Origin: an uncultured Alphaproteobacteria bacterium
GTDB taxonomy: Bacteria > Pseudomonadota > Alphaproteobacteria > HIMB59
Length of the DNA stretch: 64,000 nt
Assembly: GCA_902526965.1 (NCBI GenBank)
Contig: CABZMT010000002.1
Span: forward strand, 62,001-126,000
Direction of reading: 5' to 3'
Positions 23,422-31,947 of this stretch are shown here, one piece after another. The position numbers and the translations under genes were made by a program. The notes under the pieces were generated by a model. The model did no database searches. It worked only from the letters and a program-made list of their open reading frames with translations, and was not told the origin of the DNA. Numbering within the stretch: position 1 is the stretch's first letter; each line of letters begins with the position of its first letter.

Positions 23422-23925
23422 ATGTCTGCAAATCAAAAACTTTATATCAAGAAAAATTCTCGCATTCATTCATCTGGTCTTTTTGCCAAAACAGATATTA
23501 AAAGTGGCTCTCAAATAATAGAATACCGCGGCCTAAAAATAACAAAAGCTCAATCCGACAAGATTGCAGATGTACATATTGAAGCTAATAAGAAGGAAGG
23601 GAAAGTTGGTTCTGTTTATATTTTTACCTTAAACCAGCGCTATGATATTAATGGGAAAGTTTCTTGGAATTTAGCTAAATACATAAATCACTCGTGTGAT
23701 CCTAATTGTGAAACAGATATTGTCAGAGGAAAAATTTGGATTAATGCGATCAGAGATATAAAAAAAGGTGAAGAACTCTCATACGACTACGGTTATGATA
23801 TGCACTATCTTGAAGACCATCCTTGTAGATGTGGATCTAAAAATTGTGTGGGATATATTGTTCGAAGTAACCTTCGATGGCGTGTGAAGAAAAAATTAGC
23901 TAAGAAGAAGATTAAACTTATTTAA
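23422..23925 (+). CDS. SET domain protein (putative lysine methyltransferase) with post-SET-like Cys motif
   Basis: AKYINHSCDPNCETDIVRGKIWINAIRDIKKGEELSYDYGYD...CRCGSKNCVGYI. Confidence 0.9.
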   Translation: MSANQKLYIKKNSRIHSSGLFAKTDIKSGSQIIEYRGLKITKAQSDKIADVHIEANKKEGKVGSVYIFTLNQRYDINGKVSWNLAKYINHSCDPNCETDIVRGKIWINAIRDIKKGEELSYDYGYDMHYLEDHPCRCGSKNCVGYIVRSNLRWRVKKKLAKKKIKLI

Positions 23926-23954
23926 TATTTTATCTTAAAAATCTTTTAACACAC

Positions 23955-24008
23955 TTAAATCACAGATTGATAGAGGTCATCTTCTACTACTAAGATTTTT
24001 CGTTTCAA
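23955..24008 (-). pseudogene. Truncated PhoB-type response-regulator N-terminus (17 codons)
   Basis: TTG at 24008: MKRKILVVEDDLYQSVI*; begins 6 nt after the phoU stop codon. Confidence 0.6.
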
Positions 24009-24014
24009 AGTTTA

Positions 24015-24671
24015 TTATTCAGAGGAGTATTTACCCTCAATTAAAAAATGAACCTCTTCCATAATATTAGTTATTCTGTCACCTACTCTTTCTAAACCTT
24101 TAGAAATTTGTATAAGGGACAATGAGTCTGGGATATAATCATCGTTTTGTTTCATATATGATAAAACATCTTTAATAAATTCTCCATGTAATGTGTCAAT
24201 GATGTCATCTCTTTCAGCAATCTTATCTGCCTGTGATAGTTTTCTTTCAAAAAGACAATTCAGTGCGTCATGTGTCATTACAGAGGCTTTATTTCCAAGT
24301 ATTTCCAATTTTTCGATAAATTCAGGGGGTATACTGGAGTTAATCCTATATCCTTTTTTTGCAACTGTTACTAAATGATCTCCGATCCTCTCAAGGTCTC
24401 TTATAATTTTTATTGAACAAAAGAGGAACCTTAAATCATCTGCCATTGGCTGTCTCATAGCAATAATTTGAAAAACCGTGTCGCTAATATCATGATTTAG
24501 ATCATTAATCTGCTTATCTGTGTCTATTATGTCATTAGCTAAATTTTCATCTCTTGTTGAAAGGACCTTTAAAGCTTTATTAAATTGCTCTTCTAAAATT
24601 GAACCCATTTTTATAAGTTTTTCATTTATTGAGTTCATCTGTATTTCGTAATTTTTATCTGTGTGTTGCAT
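24015..24671 (-). CDS. phoU: Phosphate transport system regulator PhoU
   Basis: PhoU helical repeats; follows pstB. Confidence 0.92.
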   Translation of the reverse strand: MQHTDKNYEIQMNSINEKLIKMGSILEEQFNKALKVLSTRDENLANDIIDTDKQINDLNHDISDTVFQIIAMRQPMADDLRFLFCSIKIIRDLERIGDHLVTVAKKGYRINSSIPPEFIEKLEILGNKASVMTHDALNCLFERKLSQADKIAERDDIIDTLHGEFIKDVLSYMKQNDDYIPDSLSLIQISKGLERVGDRITNIMEEVHFLIEGKYSSE

Positions 24672-24673
24672 TT

Positions 24674-25432
24674 TTATCCAAACCTTCCTGTAATATAGTC
24701 ATTTGTTTTTTGATTATCTGGCTTAGTAAATATTTTAGATGTATCCCCTTCTTCAATTAAATTACCTAAATGAAAAAAAGCGGTTTTATCTGAGACTCTA
24801 GCAGCTTGCTGCATTGAATGTGTAACAATGATTATGGTGTAACTTTTTTTTAATTCAGTAATTAACTCTTCAATTATAGATGTAGCTATTGGATCGAGAG
24901 CAGAACAGGGCTCATCCATTAAAATTACCTCAGGTTTAATTGCAATTGCACGAGCAATACAAAGTCTTTGTTGTTGGCCGCCAGAAAGACTTGTACCTAG
25001 GTCATCCAACCTGTCTTTAACCTCATTAAACAAACCTGCTTTATTAAGCGAAGTATTAACTATCTCATCCAATTCTTCTTTATTGTCGGTAAATCCATGA
25101 ATGCGAGGACCATAAGCTACGTTATCGTAAATAGACTTTGGAAAAGGATTGGGTTTTTGAAAAACCATACCTATCTTTTCTCTCAGTTGTTCCACCTCAA
25201 TTTCATTACTATAAATATCAATATTATTCATACAAATTTGACCTTCTATTTTGCAAATCTCTATTACGTCATTCATTCTATTAAGGCATCTAAGAAAAGT
25301 TGATTTCCCACAACCTGATGGACCAATAAGAGCTGTCACATTATTTTTTAAAAAGTTAAGGCTTATATTATCAATTGCTTTTTTATCGCCATAATGAACA
25401 TTGACATTTTTAGTTGTGATAATATTTACCAT
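24674..25432 (-). CDS. pstB: Phosphate ABC transporter ATP-binding protein
   Basis: [33 protein letters not shown]. Confidence 0.96.
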
Positions 25433-26676
25433 TTTTTTTCATATTTTTTTCTAAAATACACAGAAACAAAATTTACAACAATTAAAAATATCAACAATAA
25501 AATTATTGCGGAGGATGTCTTTTCGATAAATCCTCTCTCAGCACTTTCTGACCATAAATAAATTTGAGCAGGCATGCCAACTGCAGGATCTAATGGAGTA
25601 GAGGGTACGTTCATTATAAATGCAACCATTCCTATCATTAAAAGAGGGGCCGTCTCTCCAACTGCTCTTGCTAAACCTATAATAGTCCCTGTCAAAGTTC
25701 CTGGCATTGCAAGAGGAAGCACATGATGAAAAACCACTTGATTTTTCGTTGCCCCTAATGCAAGTGCGCCTTCGCGAATTGATGGTGGTACCGCTCGAAG
25801 AGAGGATCGACAAGCTACAATTATCGTTGGTAGAGTCATGAATGATAAAACCATACCTCCAACAAGGGCAGTGGATCTTGGCAATCCAAAAAAATTCAAT
25901 AATATCCCCAAACCAAGCAATCCAAATATTATTGATGGAACAGCAGCTAAGTTATTAATATTAATTTCTATTAAATCAGTAGTTCTTCCAGGTTTTGCAA
26001 ATTCCTCCAAATAAATTGAGGCGAATATTGCAATTGGAAAACTTAATAGAAAACAAATTAATATCGTGAAAACTGAGCCCATAACTGAACTAGCAACTCC
26101 TGCCGACTCGGGATCCCTTGAGTCTCCAGTTAAAAAATAATCAGTATTAAAAACTTTTTTAACTTTTCCTTCACTTACAAATTGATCATAGATTTCCAAT
26201 TGGAAATTATTAATTTTTCTCTGGTTCTCAGGTATGTCTCTATTAAAATTTCCTTTATGAATTTGATCTATGCCTGTTGAAGCTGTAAATGCAATCTCAA
26301 TTGTTCGATTTAAATAATTTGGGTTATCTAATAATTGTTTTTGTGCCTCTTTATCAATTTTCCTATAAAACAATTTTTTAATTTGTTTAATTTCATCTTT
26401 GGAATAGTTGGAAAAAATTGTTTTAAAATTTTCAGATGTAACTTTTCTAAAAGATGCTTTTCTTATTTGTTCTTGAGATGAATTTTCATCAATTTTTAAT
26501 AGATTTTGATCAAAGTGAAATGGTATTATAAAACTTGTCTTAAAAAAACCACCTATGCCTGCAAAAAAAATATTTAAAATTAATACAAGAACAAACAATA
26601 GGGAAAGGCCGACAGCAAATATTCCATAAAATTGAAATCTTCTCTCTGCTTTTTTTCTCTTAGTAAGATTAGTCAT
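25426..26676 (-). CDS. pstA: Phosphate ABC transporter permease PstA
   Basis: DUF3333-like N-terminus; permease signature [20 protein letters not shown]. Confidence 0.92.
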
Positions 26677-28054
26677 ATACTTCTCTGTATTTTTTTACAA
26701 TTTTCAAAGCAAAATAATTTAAGAATAAAGTTACAAAAAATAAAGTTAGTCCAAGTGCAAATGCTACTAGAGTTTTGGGGTTATCAAATTCGGTATCCCC
26801 AGTCAAAGCTGTAACAATTTGAGTAGTAATCGTTGTTGCAGGCTCTAGAGGATTTATAGTTAAATTAGCTTGGAGACTTGCTGCCATTACAACAATCATT
26901 GTCTCCCCAATAGCTCGTGAGATTGCTAATAAAAAAGACCCTATGATACCTGGTAAAGCAGATGGAAGAATAACTTTAATTATAGTTTCAGATTTTGTTG
27001 CGCCTAGTGCGAAAGAGCCATCTCTTAGGCTCTGAGGAACTGCAGTTATTACATCGTCTGATAAAGATGAAACAAAAGGAATAATCATAACTCCCATAAC
27101 AACTCCTGCTGCTAGAGCACTCTCTGAGGAGACGTCTAAACCTAAAGTTTTTCCTAGCACAACTATTTTAGGTGCCACAACTAATGCAGCAAAAAAACCA
27201 TAAACTACAGTGGGTATTCCAGCTAAAATCTCGATTACCGGTTTAGAAAAATCTCTAATTTTTTTTGGTGCATACTCTGCTAAATAAATGGCAGACATTA
27301 AACCTAATGGGATTGCAACAATCATTGCTAAAAATGCTATTAACAATGTCCCTCCTAAAAGTGGGATGATGCCAAATGCATCTTTGAGAATTTCTTTGTC
27401 TATAGTCTCTGAGCTATCAATAACAAAAGCTTTGTTTGGACTCCAATTTATGCCAAATAAAAAGTCAAATGGGTTGACATAGCTAAAAAAATTTAATGTC
27501 TCAAAAACTAAGGATAAAAATATTCCTAATGTAATCAATATTGCTAGAACGGAACATATTTGAATAAATCGATTGACTATTTTTTCAACATACCGCTGAC
27601 TTTTATAATGGGGTAATATTTTTTTTCGTGCAGTATAAAAAGAAAAAGCTGAAATTAAAGTGATTACAAAATATGTAAAAAGTTTAAACAATCTTTCAAA
27701 TTCTAGTATTTTTTGAGAAGCAAATAACTCGATGTCACTTTCTGAACCAAATGACATCCCTAAAGATAAATTTTTAGCCTTACTAAAAAAAAGCTTAATT
27801 TCATTACTATTCATTAACTGTAAGTGATCTGATAAGACAGCCATTAAATATTGAGCAAGAATAAAATTCTTTCCAATTAATAAAATAAACCAAACTATGA
27901 TAGTTGGTATGCATATGTATAAAAAAGTTAAATAACCATAGTACGCTGGTAGACTAGCTAGTCTTTGATCTTTAGATAGTTCTTTAGATCTTTTTATCCC
28001 CAAGTAATAACCCCCGACAGATAGAATTAGCAGAAAAAGTACGGGGTAGTACAT
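26669..28054 (-). CDS. pstC: Phosphate ABC transporter permease PstC
   Basis: DGSFALGATKSETIIKVILPSALPGI; operon position. Confidence 0.92.
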   Translation of the reverse strand: MYYPVLFLLILSVGGYYLGIKRSKELSKDQRLASLPAYYGYLTFLYICIPTIIVWFILLIGKNFILAQYLMAVLSDHLQLMNSNEIKLFFSKAKNLSLGMSFGSESDIELFASQKILEFERLFKLFTYFVITLISAFSFYTARKKILPHYKSQRYVEKIVNRFIQICSVLAILITLGIFLSLVFETLNFFSYVNPFDFLFGINWSPNKAFVIDSSETIDKEILKDAFGIIPLLGGTLLIAFLAMIVAIPLGLMSAIYLAEYAPKKIRDFSKPVIEILAGIPTVVYGFFAALVVAPKIVVLGKTLGLDVSSESALAAGVVMGVMIIPFVSSLSDDVITAVPQSLRDGSFALGATKSETIIKVILPSALPGIIGSFLLAISRAIGETMIVVMAASLQANLTINPLEPATTITTQIVTALTGDTEFDNPKTLVAFALGLTLFFVTLFLNYFALKIVKKYREVYD

Positions 28055-28087
28055 ATAGTTTTAGTATATCAAAGATTGAAATAATAT

Positions 28088-28109
28088 AGGGGGCGATTTG
28101 CAGCCCCCT
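28088..28109 (-). terminator. Intercistronic hairpin between pstS and pstC
   Basis: Perfect 7-bp AGGGGGC/GCCCCCT stem with 8-nt loop, immediately after the pstS stop; no clear U-tract. Confidence 0.55.
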
Positions 28110-28127
28110 GTTAATAAATTTAAATAT

Positions 28128-29189
28128 TTACTTACAAGCAGAACCGAAGCCGTCCAATTCTTTGAGTGGATGTTTTTTTTCAGCACAGCTTTGTAAATCC
28201 ATTGTTACTAAATCTTCTACGGACTCTAGAGTTCTATCTGTTAGATCATCAGTCATTGGTGCAAGGCCATATTCAGTTAAGTAACCATCTTCCCCAATAG
28301 CATCTTCGGAGACCATTAAAGATGCATATTCAGCAATACCTGGAATTACACCTATATGGGCTTTTTTGATATAAAAGAAAAGTGGTCTAGCATTAGGGTA
28401 CTCATATGATTGAATGGTTTCCATGGTTGGCTCAACACCATCTATGATACTTCCTTGAATTTTATCCTGATTGGCACTCAAGAAACTATAACCAAAATAT
28501 CCAAAACGTTCTGGGTCTTCAGCGAGTTTTTGAACAATTAAAGTGTCGTTTTCACCCATTTCAATTGTTCTGCCATCTTCCCTGTATGCTGTGCAGCCAT
28601 CTTCGCTTCCTTTAATGTCCACGTATCCAGATTTTTCACAACCTTTTTCCATTACCAAACCATCGAACGCATCTCGAGTCCCAGAAGTAGGAGGGGCAAC
28701 AAGTACTTCAATTTCATATTCAGGATAAGATGAGTCAATCTCACTCCATTTTGAATATGGATTTTTGATGATCACACCATCTACAGGAACTTCATCAGCC
28801 ATTGCTAAAAAAATATGTTCTTTTTTTAAGCTAAACCTCTCAGCTTCAACACTATTTGAAAATGTAAGACCATCATTACCTAAGACCACTTCGATAACTT
28901 CAGTGACACCATTTTCAAGGCAAAGTTTTGCCTCTTTTGATTTCATTGGTCTAGAAGCATTTGTAATATCAGGAAATTTTTCACCAATACCTCCACAAAA
29001 AAGTTTCATACCACCACCGGTACCAGTGGGCTCAATGGTTGCTCCGTTATAACCCTCTTCAGTAAATCTTTCTGCACCAATTGTTGCATAAGGAAATACT
29101 GTTGATGAACCAACAATGCTAATAGTATCTCTTGCGTTAGCCACAGAAATTAGAGTGAAAAGAATAAAAGTTACAAATGTTTTTTTCAT
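28128..29189 (-). CDS. pstS: Phosphate ABC transporter substrate-binding protein
   Basis: Signal peptide; ISIVGSSTVFPYATIGAERF, PPTSGTRDAFDGLVM. Confidence 0.93.
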   Translation of the reverse strand: MKKTFVTFILFTLISVANARDTISIVGSSTVFPYATIGAERFTEEGYNGATIEPTGTGGGMKLFCGGIGEKFPDITNASRPMKSKEAKLCLENGVTEVIEVVLGNDGLTFSNSVEAERFSLKKEHIFLAMADEVPVDGVIIKNPYSKWSEIDSSYPEYEIEVLVAPPTSGTRDAFDGLVMEKGCEKSGYVDIKGSEDGCTAYREDGRTIEMGENDTLIVQKLAEDPERFGYFGYSFLSANQDKIQGSIIDGVEPTMETIQSYEYPNARPLFFYIKKAHIGVIPGIAEYASLMVSEDAIGEDGYLTEYGLAPMTDDLTDRTLESVEDLVTMDLQSCAEKKHPLKELDGFGSACK

Positions 29190-29394
29190 TTTTTTTCCTT
29201 TAAATTATTTATTTAATAAGAATCTTATATTTTAAATATATGAAGAATTTATTCGATAAAAATAGGAATAAAAGTTTTATATTTATTAATAAACATGAAT
29301 GTGCTTAGAAATTGATTTAAGATTACATTGATACATTTTTTTTTAAATGTATTAATTCTAATATGTTACTGAAGACAAATATTAAGTTTGTTTT

Positions 29395-31947
29395 ATGAAA
29401 AAAGTCCCTAGTTTTAAAAAAAAATATCTTGAGGGCAGAGATATGCTTTTTGGCTCCCTGATTAAAAATAATAATGGGGTCTTATTTAACAAAAGCCATG
29501 GTAATCTGGTCGATAAATTAATTATTGAGATTGTTAAAGATATTCAAATTACTTTTCCAGTTTCTGACTTCTGTTTAATCGCTGTAGGAGGTTATGGCAG
29601 ACATGACTTGTCACCAAAAAGTGATGTTGACTTACTATTTATTTATAAAAAATCTAATAAAAATATAAGAGATTTTATTACTCAATTAAATAATACACTG
29701 TGGGATATTGGATTAGAAGTTGGAATATCTTTCTTAACAATTAAACAGGCATTAATCGATTCTAAGAAAGATACAAAGACAATTACAAAATTTGTTGAGA
29801 CTCGTTTTATTATTGGTGATGAAATTCAATATGGTGAGTTTGTTCGTTCCATTAAGATTTTAATTGGAAAACAAAATCCCCTAAAGCTCAGCGAATTAAA
29901 GCTTATAGAGTTGGTTGAAAGACATGACTATCGAATAGGAATTAAAAGTAATTTAGAGCCGAATATCAAAGAGGGTATTGGGGGTCTTAGAGATATTCAT
30001 ACCATACTGTGGGTATCGATCTTTATGTTTAACATTTATAAATTAGAAGACTTAACGTCTATTAATATCTATACCAAAGAGGAAATTAAAGAATTAAAGA
30101 ATGCTTGGAAATTTCTCTTAACCATTCGAGCATTTATTCATTTATTTAACGAAAGCAAAGGCGATGTTTTATCTATTGAAAATCAATTAAAAATTTCAAA
30201 AAAACTCTCTTACAAAGATAAAAAGAAGGAAAAAGGAGTAGAGATTTTTATGAAAGATTTGTTTGTGAATGTTGCAAAGATTAATTCTCTCTTAAGAGCC
30301 TTTTATTCAAAGCTTCCAGAGGATTTAATAATCAAAACAATTTATAAAAGAAAACCCACTAAAACTAAATCATTAGAAAAAGAATTTATAATTGAAAAAG
30401 GTTTTCTGAATTTAAAAAATAATACTGCTAAAAACCTTCAACTAAAATGGGCAAACGTCTTTGAAAAATCCTTGGAACATAATTTACTCATTCATCCTCG
30501 CTTTTTAAAGACCGTCGAGGAAAGGAGAAAAGTTTTAAAAAAAACCACTGATAAACAACATATCCAATCATTTTTAAATATTGTCGTCTCCAAAAAAAAT
30601 CCTATACAGGCCCTTCATGATTTTAATGATACCCAGCTATTTAGCGAAATATTTCCTGAGTTTGGCAGAGTTTGGGGACAAGTGCAGTTTGATATTTATC
30701 ATCACTACACCACAGACGAACACTTATTATTAACACTGCACAACCTAAATGAGCTAAGACAAAAATCCTTTTATAATGAAATATATAGCAGGTTATCCTC
30801 AAGAGAAGCCCTTCACATCGCTTTACTATTTCATGACATCGGAAAGAAGGGGCCAAAAAATCATTCTGTTTATGGAACAGAGTTAACTAATAAAATTTTA
30901 AAAAGACTTCCTGTATCACAAGAAGTGAAAGAATTAACATTGTGGCTAGTTGAACATCATTTAGTAATGAGCGATACAGCCTTTAAAAATGACACGCAAA
31001 GCTCTGAGGCAATTGCTAAATTTACTTCTATTGCGAACACAGAAGAAAAAATAAATTCATTATTTCTATTTACCTTGTGTGATATTGCTTCTGTTGGACC
31101 AAATATTCTAAATGAATGGAGAATAAGTTTGCTTCGAAGTTTGTTTTATAATGCAAAAGACTTTCTTCAAAGAGGCTTAGATACAAAAACTTATTCATCC
31201 TCTGTTCAAGAATCCTTGAAGAAGTCTGTATTACAACAATCCGATATAAGCCTGAAAAAATTTATCAACAAGTCAATCAAAGAATTTCCTGCTCCGTTTT
31301 GGGAAGCCTTTTCGTCCAGAATGATTGTAGATATATTTAAAATTTATCAAAAAAATAAAAAAGCAAAAATTATTAACTCAGTAAATTTTTTAAACTATGA
31401 AAATAAAGAATATAGTGCGGTTGTCGTAACGAGTAAAAATAGATCTGGTATATTAAAAGACATTGTCTCTGGGTTTACTCATTCTCAATCAAACATTCTA
31501 AGCTCCAGAATAATCTCTTTGAATAACAATCAAGTAATTGATGTATTTTGGGTAACGAACTTCTTCAATAAAGGTGTTTTAGATCTCAACGAGCAAAAGC
31601 GAACAGCGAAACACGTGATGAGCGCTCTTAATCAAAAAGATTTTAAACCCTTACAGTCCTTTACCAAAGATCAGCAAAAACTAGCCGTCAATCCTCAAAT
31701 CACAATTGATAACGAGATGAGCAAGCAAGTCACTACTTTTCAAATATTATCCGGCGATCGACCGGGGCTTTTAATGGATATTCTAGGAGTGTTTCATGAT
31801 AAACAAATTAGCGTTCAATCAGCAAAAATCTCCACTTATGGAGAGAAAGTTTTTGATATTTTTCAATTAACAAATAGTAATAACCAAAAAATAAAAGATA
31901 CAAAATTGCTTAAATCTATAGAAAGCAATCTGATTTCTATTCTTTAG
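29395..31947 (+). CDS. glnD: [Protein-PII] uridylyltransferase
   Basis: GGYGRHDLSPKSDVDLLFI, HD motif LLFHDIGKKGP, C-terminal ACT domains. Confidence 0.95.
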   Translation: MKKVPSFKKKYLEGRDMLFGSLIKNNNGVLFNKSHGNLVDKLIIEIVKDIQITFPVSDFCLIAVGGYGRHDLSPKSDVDLLFIYKKSNKNIRDFITQLNNTLWDIGLEVGISFLTIKQALIDSKKDTKTITKFVETRFIIGDEIQYGEFVRSIKILIGKQNPLKLSELKLIELVERHDYRIGIKSNLEPNIKEGIGGLRDIHTILWVSIFMFNIYKLEDLTSINIYTKEEIKELKNAWKFLLTIRAFIHLFNESKGDVLSIENQLKISKKLSYKDKKKEKGVEIFMKDLFVNVAKINSLLRAFYSKLPEDLIIKTIYKRKPTKTKSLEKEFIIEKGFLNLKNNTAKNLQLKWANVFEKSLEHNLLIHPRFLKTVEERRKVLKKTTDKQHIQSFLNIVVSKKNPIQALHDFNDTQLFSEIFPEFGRVWGQVQFDIYHHYTTDEHLLLTLHNLNELRQKSFYNEIYSRLSSREALHIALLFHDIGKKGPKNHSVYGTELTNKILKRLPVSQEVKELTLWLVEHHLVMSDTAFKNDTQSSEAIAKFTSIANTEEKINSLFLFTLCDIASVGPNILNEWRISLLRSLFYNAKDFLQRGLDTKTYSSSVQESLKKSVLQQSDISLKKFINKSIKEFPAPFWEAFSSRMIVDIFKIYQKNKKAKIINSVNFLNYENKEYSAVVVTSKNRSGILKDIVSGFTHSQSNILSSRIISLNNNQVIDVFWVTNFFNKGVLDLNEQKRTAKHVMSALNQKDFKPLQSFTKDQQKLAVNPQITIDNEMSKQVTTFQILSGDRPGLLMDILGVFHDKQISVQSAKISTYGEKVFDIFQLTNSNNQKIKDTKLLKSIESNLISIL

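Follow-up and report, generated by a model that had tools for sequence, protein, structure and literature searches.

Why does a 17-codon open reading frame that starts like the response-regulator gene phoB stand at the end of a pst phosphate-transport operon? The frame, which begins 6 nt after the phoU stop codon and reads LKRKILVVEDDLYQSVI before its own stop, lies in a 64-kb stretch of DNA that was analyzed as a whole (the window; Table 1), and a first-pass annotation had described it as a PhoB-like stub. We conclude that it is very probably the dead 5′ end of phoB, remaining after a deletion of ~1.1 kb in a lineage that lost regulator, sensor, and operator and kept pstSCAB-phoU, with pst expression now predicted to be independent of phosphate. 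The Pho control parts lost would be three: phoB (response regulator), phoR (sensor kinase), and the 11-bp operator repeats before pstS.

Table 1. Features of the pst locus in the window.
Feature	Coordinates	Strand	Remarks
phoB stub, 17 codons	23955..24008	(-)	Translation; aligned to the intact phoB genes of 7 relatives; identical in G000, G012, and G033
phoU–SET intergenic scar, 89 nt	23926..24014	(-)	Holds stub and deletion junction
phoU, intact	24015..24671	(-)	100% protein identity with G012 and G033
pstB, intact	24674..25432	(-)	
pstA, intact	25426..26676	(-)	
pstC, intact	26669..28054	(-)	
pstS, intact	28128..29189	(-)	
pstS–glnD intergenic region, 205 nt	29190..29394	(-)	Site of phoR and Pho box in sampled relatives, both missing here
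SET-domain gene (PF00856), convergent	23422..23925	(+)	Island border
glnD	29395..31947	(+)	Border gene on pstS side; name from reading of protein

Multiple alignments support the assignment to phoB. First, the initial ~12 codons of the stub (TTG AAA CGA AAA ATC TTA GTA GTA GAA GAT GAC) correspond to the phoB 5′ end, and a degenerate DNA pattern for KILVVEDD-type sequences matched the window just once, at the stub and with 0 mismatches (chance expectation with as many as three mismatches, 0.10 per 64 kb over the two strands). Second, the phoU–SET intergenic DNA aligned with intact phoB of three relatives (L055, L066, and L057) with scores of 41–44, exceeding 1000 of 1000 dinucleotide shuffles (shuffle maxima 34–39), and with phoB of three others (L056, L064, and L067) with scores merely equal to or barely above the shuffle maxima. 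Third, with phoU added to the query, the alignment ran collinearly over the phoU–phoB boundary of relatives and ~32–49 nt into the stub, as a phoB remnant at the same locus should. The 24 nt encoding KILVVEDD differed from intact phoB at 2–3 positions in the DNA alignment, after which there was a +2 shift, and in alignments with L055 and L066 the stub tail, LYQSVI and a stop codon, resembled a +2 frame shift of a sequence ending in SISDL. Homology beyond this shift was set aside as not significant alone, with ~350 of 2000 shuffles aligning equally well. Judged from these alignments, the part of the stub that can be assigned convincingly to phoB would be ~12 codons, through KILVVEDD. Thus, the first-pass annotation was right about the stub and about KILVVEDD as the start of a PhoB receiver domain, and too generous in extending the resemblance over all 17 codons. 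What is left of the receiver domain is its first strand with the acidic pair (KILVVEDD); the phospho-acceptor aspartate is missing, as is the Trans_reg_C DNA-binding domain, with 89 nt in all between phoU and SET. The stub itself looks like debris.

A short frame that departs from phoB in its last six residues could in principle be a chance event or an assembly artifact in a lineage that never had phoB here. This explanation is scarcely credible given the alignment scores of three phoB sequences, higher than in any shuffle, the exact position, start codon, and spacing, and the presence of phoB at the same place across the order. Moreover, the stub occurs with 0 base differences in three genomes of one genus, namely G000, G012 (AG-337-L15, contig CABZNL010000013.1), and G033 (AG-337-M07, contig CABZOW010000002.1). 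The flanking genes of the latter two differ from those of the window by roughly 0.2–2%; they are therefore distinct sequences, and an assembly error in a single genome cannot account for the stub. Nor is it drifting at random, another possibility that the first pass had left for comparison with relatives to decide.

That comparison, in which PhoU served as the query to fetch the equivalent locus, revealed the gene order phoR-pstSCAB-phoU-phoB-low-molecular-weight (LMW) phosphatase followed by convergent SET, with phoR directly before pstS. L055 (AG-349-E10) and L066 (AG-404-P08), the next closest pst types to the stub lineage, have a complete phoB at the stub position, with the same 6-nt gap, the same TTG start, and an identical KILVVEDD; behind it come the LMW phosphatase gene (PF01451) and then SET. 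phoU and SET are 1171 nt apart in both; in the stub lineage they are 89 nt apart, corresponding to a net deletion of ~1.1 kb that would have left the phoB 5′ end and taken the rest of phoB together with the phosphatase gene. The convergent SET gene ends 29 nt beyond the stub, and the earlier proposal that the remainder of phoB was deleted fits the intact gene at this exact place in relatives. Because a sister family (L203 and L204) also has phoR-pst-phoU-phoB, the complete operon is ancestral by parsimony.

Other features of these loci vary. Among nine genomes searched, the PF01451 phosphatase gene was present solely where phoB is and missing where phoB is missing (e.g., L055 9333–9809); in L057 and L058, phoB is followed by an LMW phosphatase homologue on the opposite strand. 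Immediately upstream of phoR is a gene for a PhnV-like ABC permease in L055 (1222–2133) and L056 (1963–2874), and DUF47-pit occupies this position in L066 (1114–2166). Elsewhere, a response-regulator receiver domain in G063 (G063:C1:358733–359061) is split over two overlapping frames, a possible frame shift.

Could PhoB be encoded elsewhere, as the first pass had suggested? Family searches of the three stub-bearing genomes, which are 79, 81, and 50% complete (G000, G012, and G033, respectively), found no PhoB-type regulator, no Trans_reg_C domain above cut-off, no PhoR, no LMWPc phosphatase, and no Pit. The response regulators found were RegA-like and NtrX-like only, 28–32% identical to PhoB, and the two HisKA kinases of G000 each lie beside one of these regulators, neither being PhoR. 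Absence from a single incomplete genome is weak evidence, and agreement among three is better; a second phoB elsewhere in the stub lineage is unlikely. Pst was the sole phosphate importer found in these genomes.

Upstream of pstS, nine phoB-bearing family members carry a Pho-box-like 33-mer at −88 to −93, with three or more 11-bp repeats (in L056, for example, TTGTCATAAAT CTTTCATATTT CTTTAATATTT). The textbook Pho box repeat is CTGTCAT, and from the likeness to such repeats, the repeat structure, and the position, we infer that the 33-mer is a putative Pho box. A scan with an E. coli-type consensus discriminated only partially, and scores were taken from a leave-one-out matrix built on three 11-bp repeats, with the type being scored excluded from training. 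The nine genomes scored 12.7–40.4 bits, values reached by 0 of 300 shuffles, and the window and G012 scored 1.6, with 51 of 300 shuffles as good for the window. In the sister family, L203 scored 16.7 (at −74); the matrix fails for L204 (score 1.0, reached by 28 of 300 shuffles). No predicted Pho box was found before pstS in the window, which would place this operon outside the Pho regulon in the sense of pst under PhoB, and no consensus sigma-70 promoter was found there either. The glnD and pstS genes of the window are divergently oriented neighbors, and no phoR lies between them.

With PhoB and its box gone, transcription of the operon would have to start from another promoter, most simply with steady expression as the result. 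This promoter would lie in the 205-nt pstS–glnD region and would act independently of phosphate. As Pst is the only importer found, such expression could be tolerated in settings with a constant demand for phosphate. The first-pass idea that pst may lack local PhoB control agrees with the loss of phoB, phoR, and Pho box from the locus, and uptake in the stub lineage is probably no longer switched by phosphate. Regulation might instead have been replaced, with pst answering to the RegA-like or NtrX-like regulator or to PhoU via the transporter. Two other response regulators do remain in G000, and the 205-nt region, which has room for an operator, does not differ between G000 and G012; no motif was found in it, however, both regulators are distant from PhoB, and a relative that also lacks phoB (AG-470-L07) has a different upstream arrangement. 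On balance, we regard replacement as unlikely.

Loss of the control genes has not meant decay of the transporter. Summed over the five pstSCAB-phoU genes, the window and G033 differ by 27 synonymous and 7 non-synonymous changes, indicating that the transporter is still under purifying selection. Independently of PhoB, PhoU also acts as a brake on the Pst transporter, which would account for the retention of phoU; in the stub lineage, restraint of Pst uptake would be the only role left to it. Might the stub likewise be retained because it is useful, either encoding a 17-residue peptide or serving as an RNA element at the 3′ end of the pst transcript? All 89 nt are without difference in three genomes, but the adjoining phoU, pstB, and pstA are 99.8–100% identical too, so identity of the stub is expected and needs no function. 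The RNA-element or terminator candidate was rejected: the fold (z = 0.25) did not stand above shuffles, and no terminator was found. AG-470-L07, moreover, has no stub at all. A retained function is thus very improbable, and debris from a phoB deletion remains our reading.

AG-470-L07 (genome G060; loci L065/L205) appears to represent a second, separate loss. Its phoU and SET stop codons overlap by 4 nt; stub, phoR, and Pho box are all missing (matrix score 4.9); and pstS lies ~40 nt behind DUF47-pit. Its pstA and pstC group with those of the phoB-bearing L055 and L066 (support 100/99), apart from the three stub genomes, which form one supported cluster (pstC 100/99); on these genes, the losses are therefore separate. 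The OmpR-type regulator that remains in G060 shares 31% identity with PhoB and 84% with another regulator of G029, and is therefore a paralogue. Judged from these trees and gene contents, PhoRB loss appears to have at least two origins. In each case sensor, regulator, and operator would have been cut together from both operon ends, at least twice in one genus and with the transporter intact, and we lean somewhat toward a recurrent conversion from inducible to phosphate-blind expression, of which the stub would be the fossil of one event. The phosphatase gene, phoR, and Pho box losses and this second lineage go beyond the first-pass annotation, as does the link to a PhoRB-less island already in the literature.

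Where the deletion happened is a separate matter. The pst-phoU DNA (24015–29189) is 74–80% identical to sister types (L055/L205), and the flanks are more similar (SET, rimI, and miaB, 87–91%; glnD, 96% for L205), a sharp drop in identity pointing to allele replacement of the island. Trees also disagree on the nearest kin, phoU grouping with L057/L058 and pstA/pstC with L055, and frequent exchange of the phosphate island has been described in the published account cited here (PMC10734472). A refinement of the phoB-deletion reading, in which the deletion occurred in another lineage, spread, and reached this one with an entire island, already without its regulators, by homologous recombination, seems to us evenly balanced against deletion in place. 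It bears on where, not whether, phoB was deleted, and three genomes carry the stub.

The SET border also occurs without pst. In three genomes of the genus, G002 (L197 12072–13046), G019 (L198 11732–12736), and G023 (L199 6884–7858), a ~325-residue protein stands beside SET instead of the operon; the L197 copy, the one tested, matches PHO4 at 32.0 bits, below the cut-off of 33.7. By the published account, all phosphate islands found contained pst (PMC10734472). A truncated second SET 3′ copy lies near the intact copy in G019 (G019:C1:42760–42870), with one stop and 76% identity across 37 residues.

That HIMB59 pst islands can lack PhoRB is already known. The stub lineage itself probably belongs to the HIMB59 clade (AEGEAN-169): its named relatives are AG-337 isolates and ‘Pelagibacteraceae’, and PMC10308929 uses the name HIMB59 for a further AG-337 genome. 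Molina-Pardines et al. (2023; PMC10734472) found a flexible phosphate island in the HIMB59 order, of which fGIp-A, called the simplest version, is pst-phoU-SET without PhoR-PhoB and is the sole version at >0.5 µM phosphate; version B adds PhoR-PhoB and a tyrosine phosphatase. The authors propose that a cell lacking these regulators may not respond to changes in phosphate, and they refer to the two-component system as acquired. The portions of the paper cited here make no mention of a phoB remnant, a Pho box, or a direction of change, and the ocean-wide pattern they report, with PhoRB-less islands where phosphate is higher, is silent on whether such islands are ancestral or reduced. What is new here is the apparent direction, loss rather than primitive simplicity, with at least two origins and loss of the operator: reduction in these lineages is indicated by the phoB fossil, by the clean deletion in AG-470-L07, and by loss of the Pho box. 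Together these offer a concrete, testable case of streamlined bacteria dropping regulation and retaining the regulated transporter. In the literature on other groups, we found nothing directly comparable for phoB loss.

Compared with these systems, the window resembles fGIp-A in having pstSCAB-phoU with a SET methyltransferase gene and no phoR or phoB, and fGIp-A also lacks Pit in most of the family (PMC10734472). Where that account refers to acquisition, the remnant indicates loss in the stub lineage. Version B (phoR-pstSCAB-phoU-phoB-tyrosine phosphatase) has the operon order and borders of L055/L066, and relative to it the window has no phoR, phosphatase gene, or Pho box and only the start of phoB. 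Like offshore SAR11 (Pelagibacteraceae; PMC12636525), these are streamlined ocean bacteria shedding Pho/Pst parts. According to that paper, however, offshore SAR11 lacks the transporter along with its regulators and retains pitA, whereas the stub lineage appears to have lost the control parts and kept the transporter.
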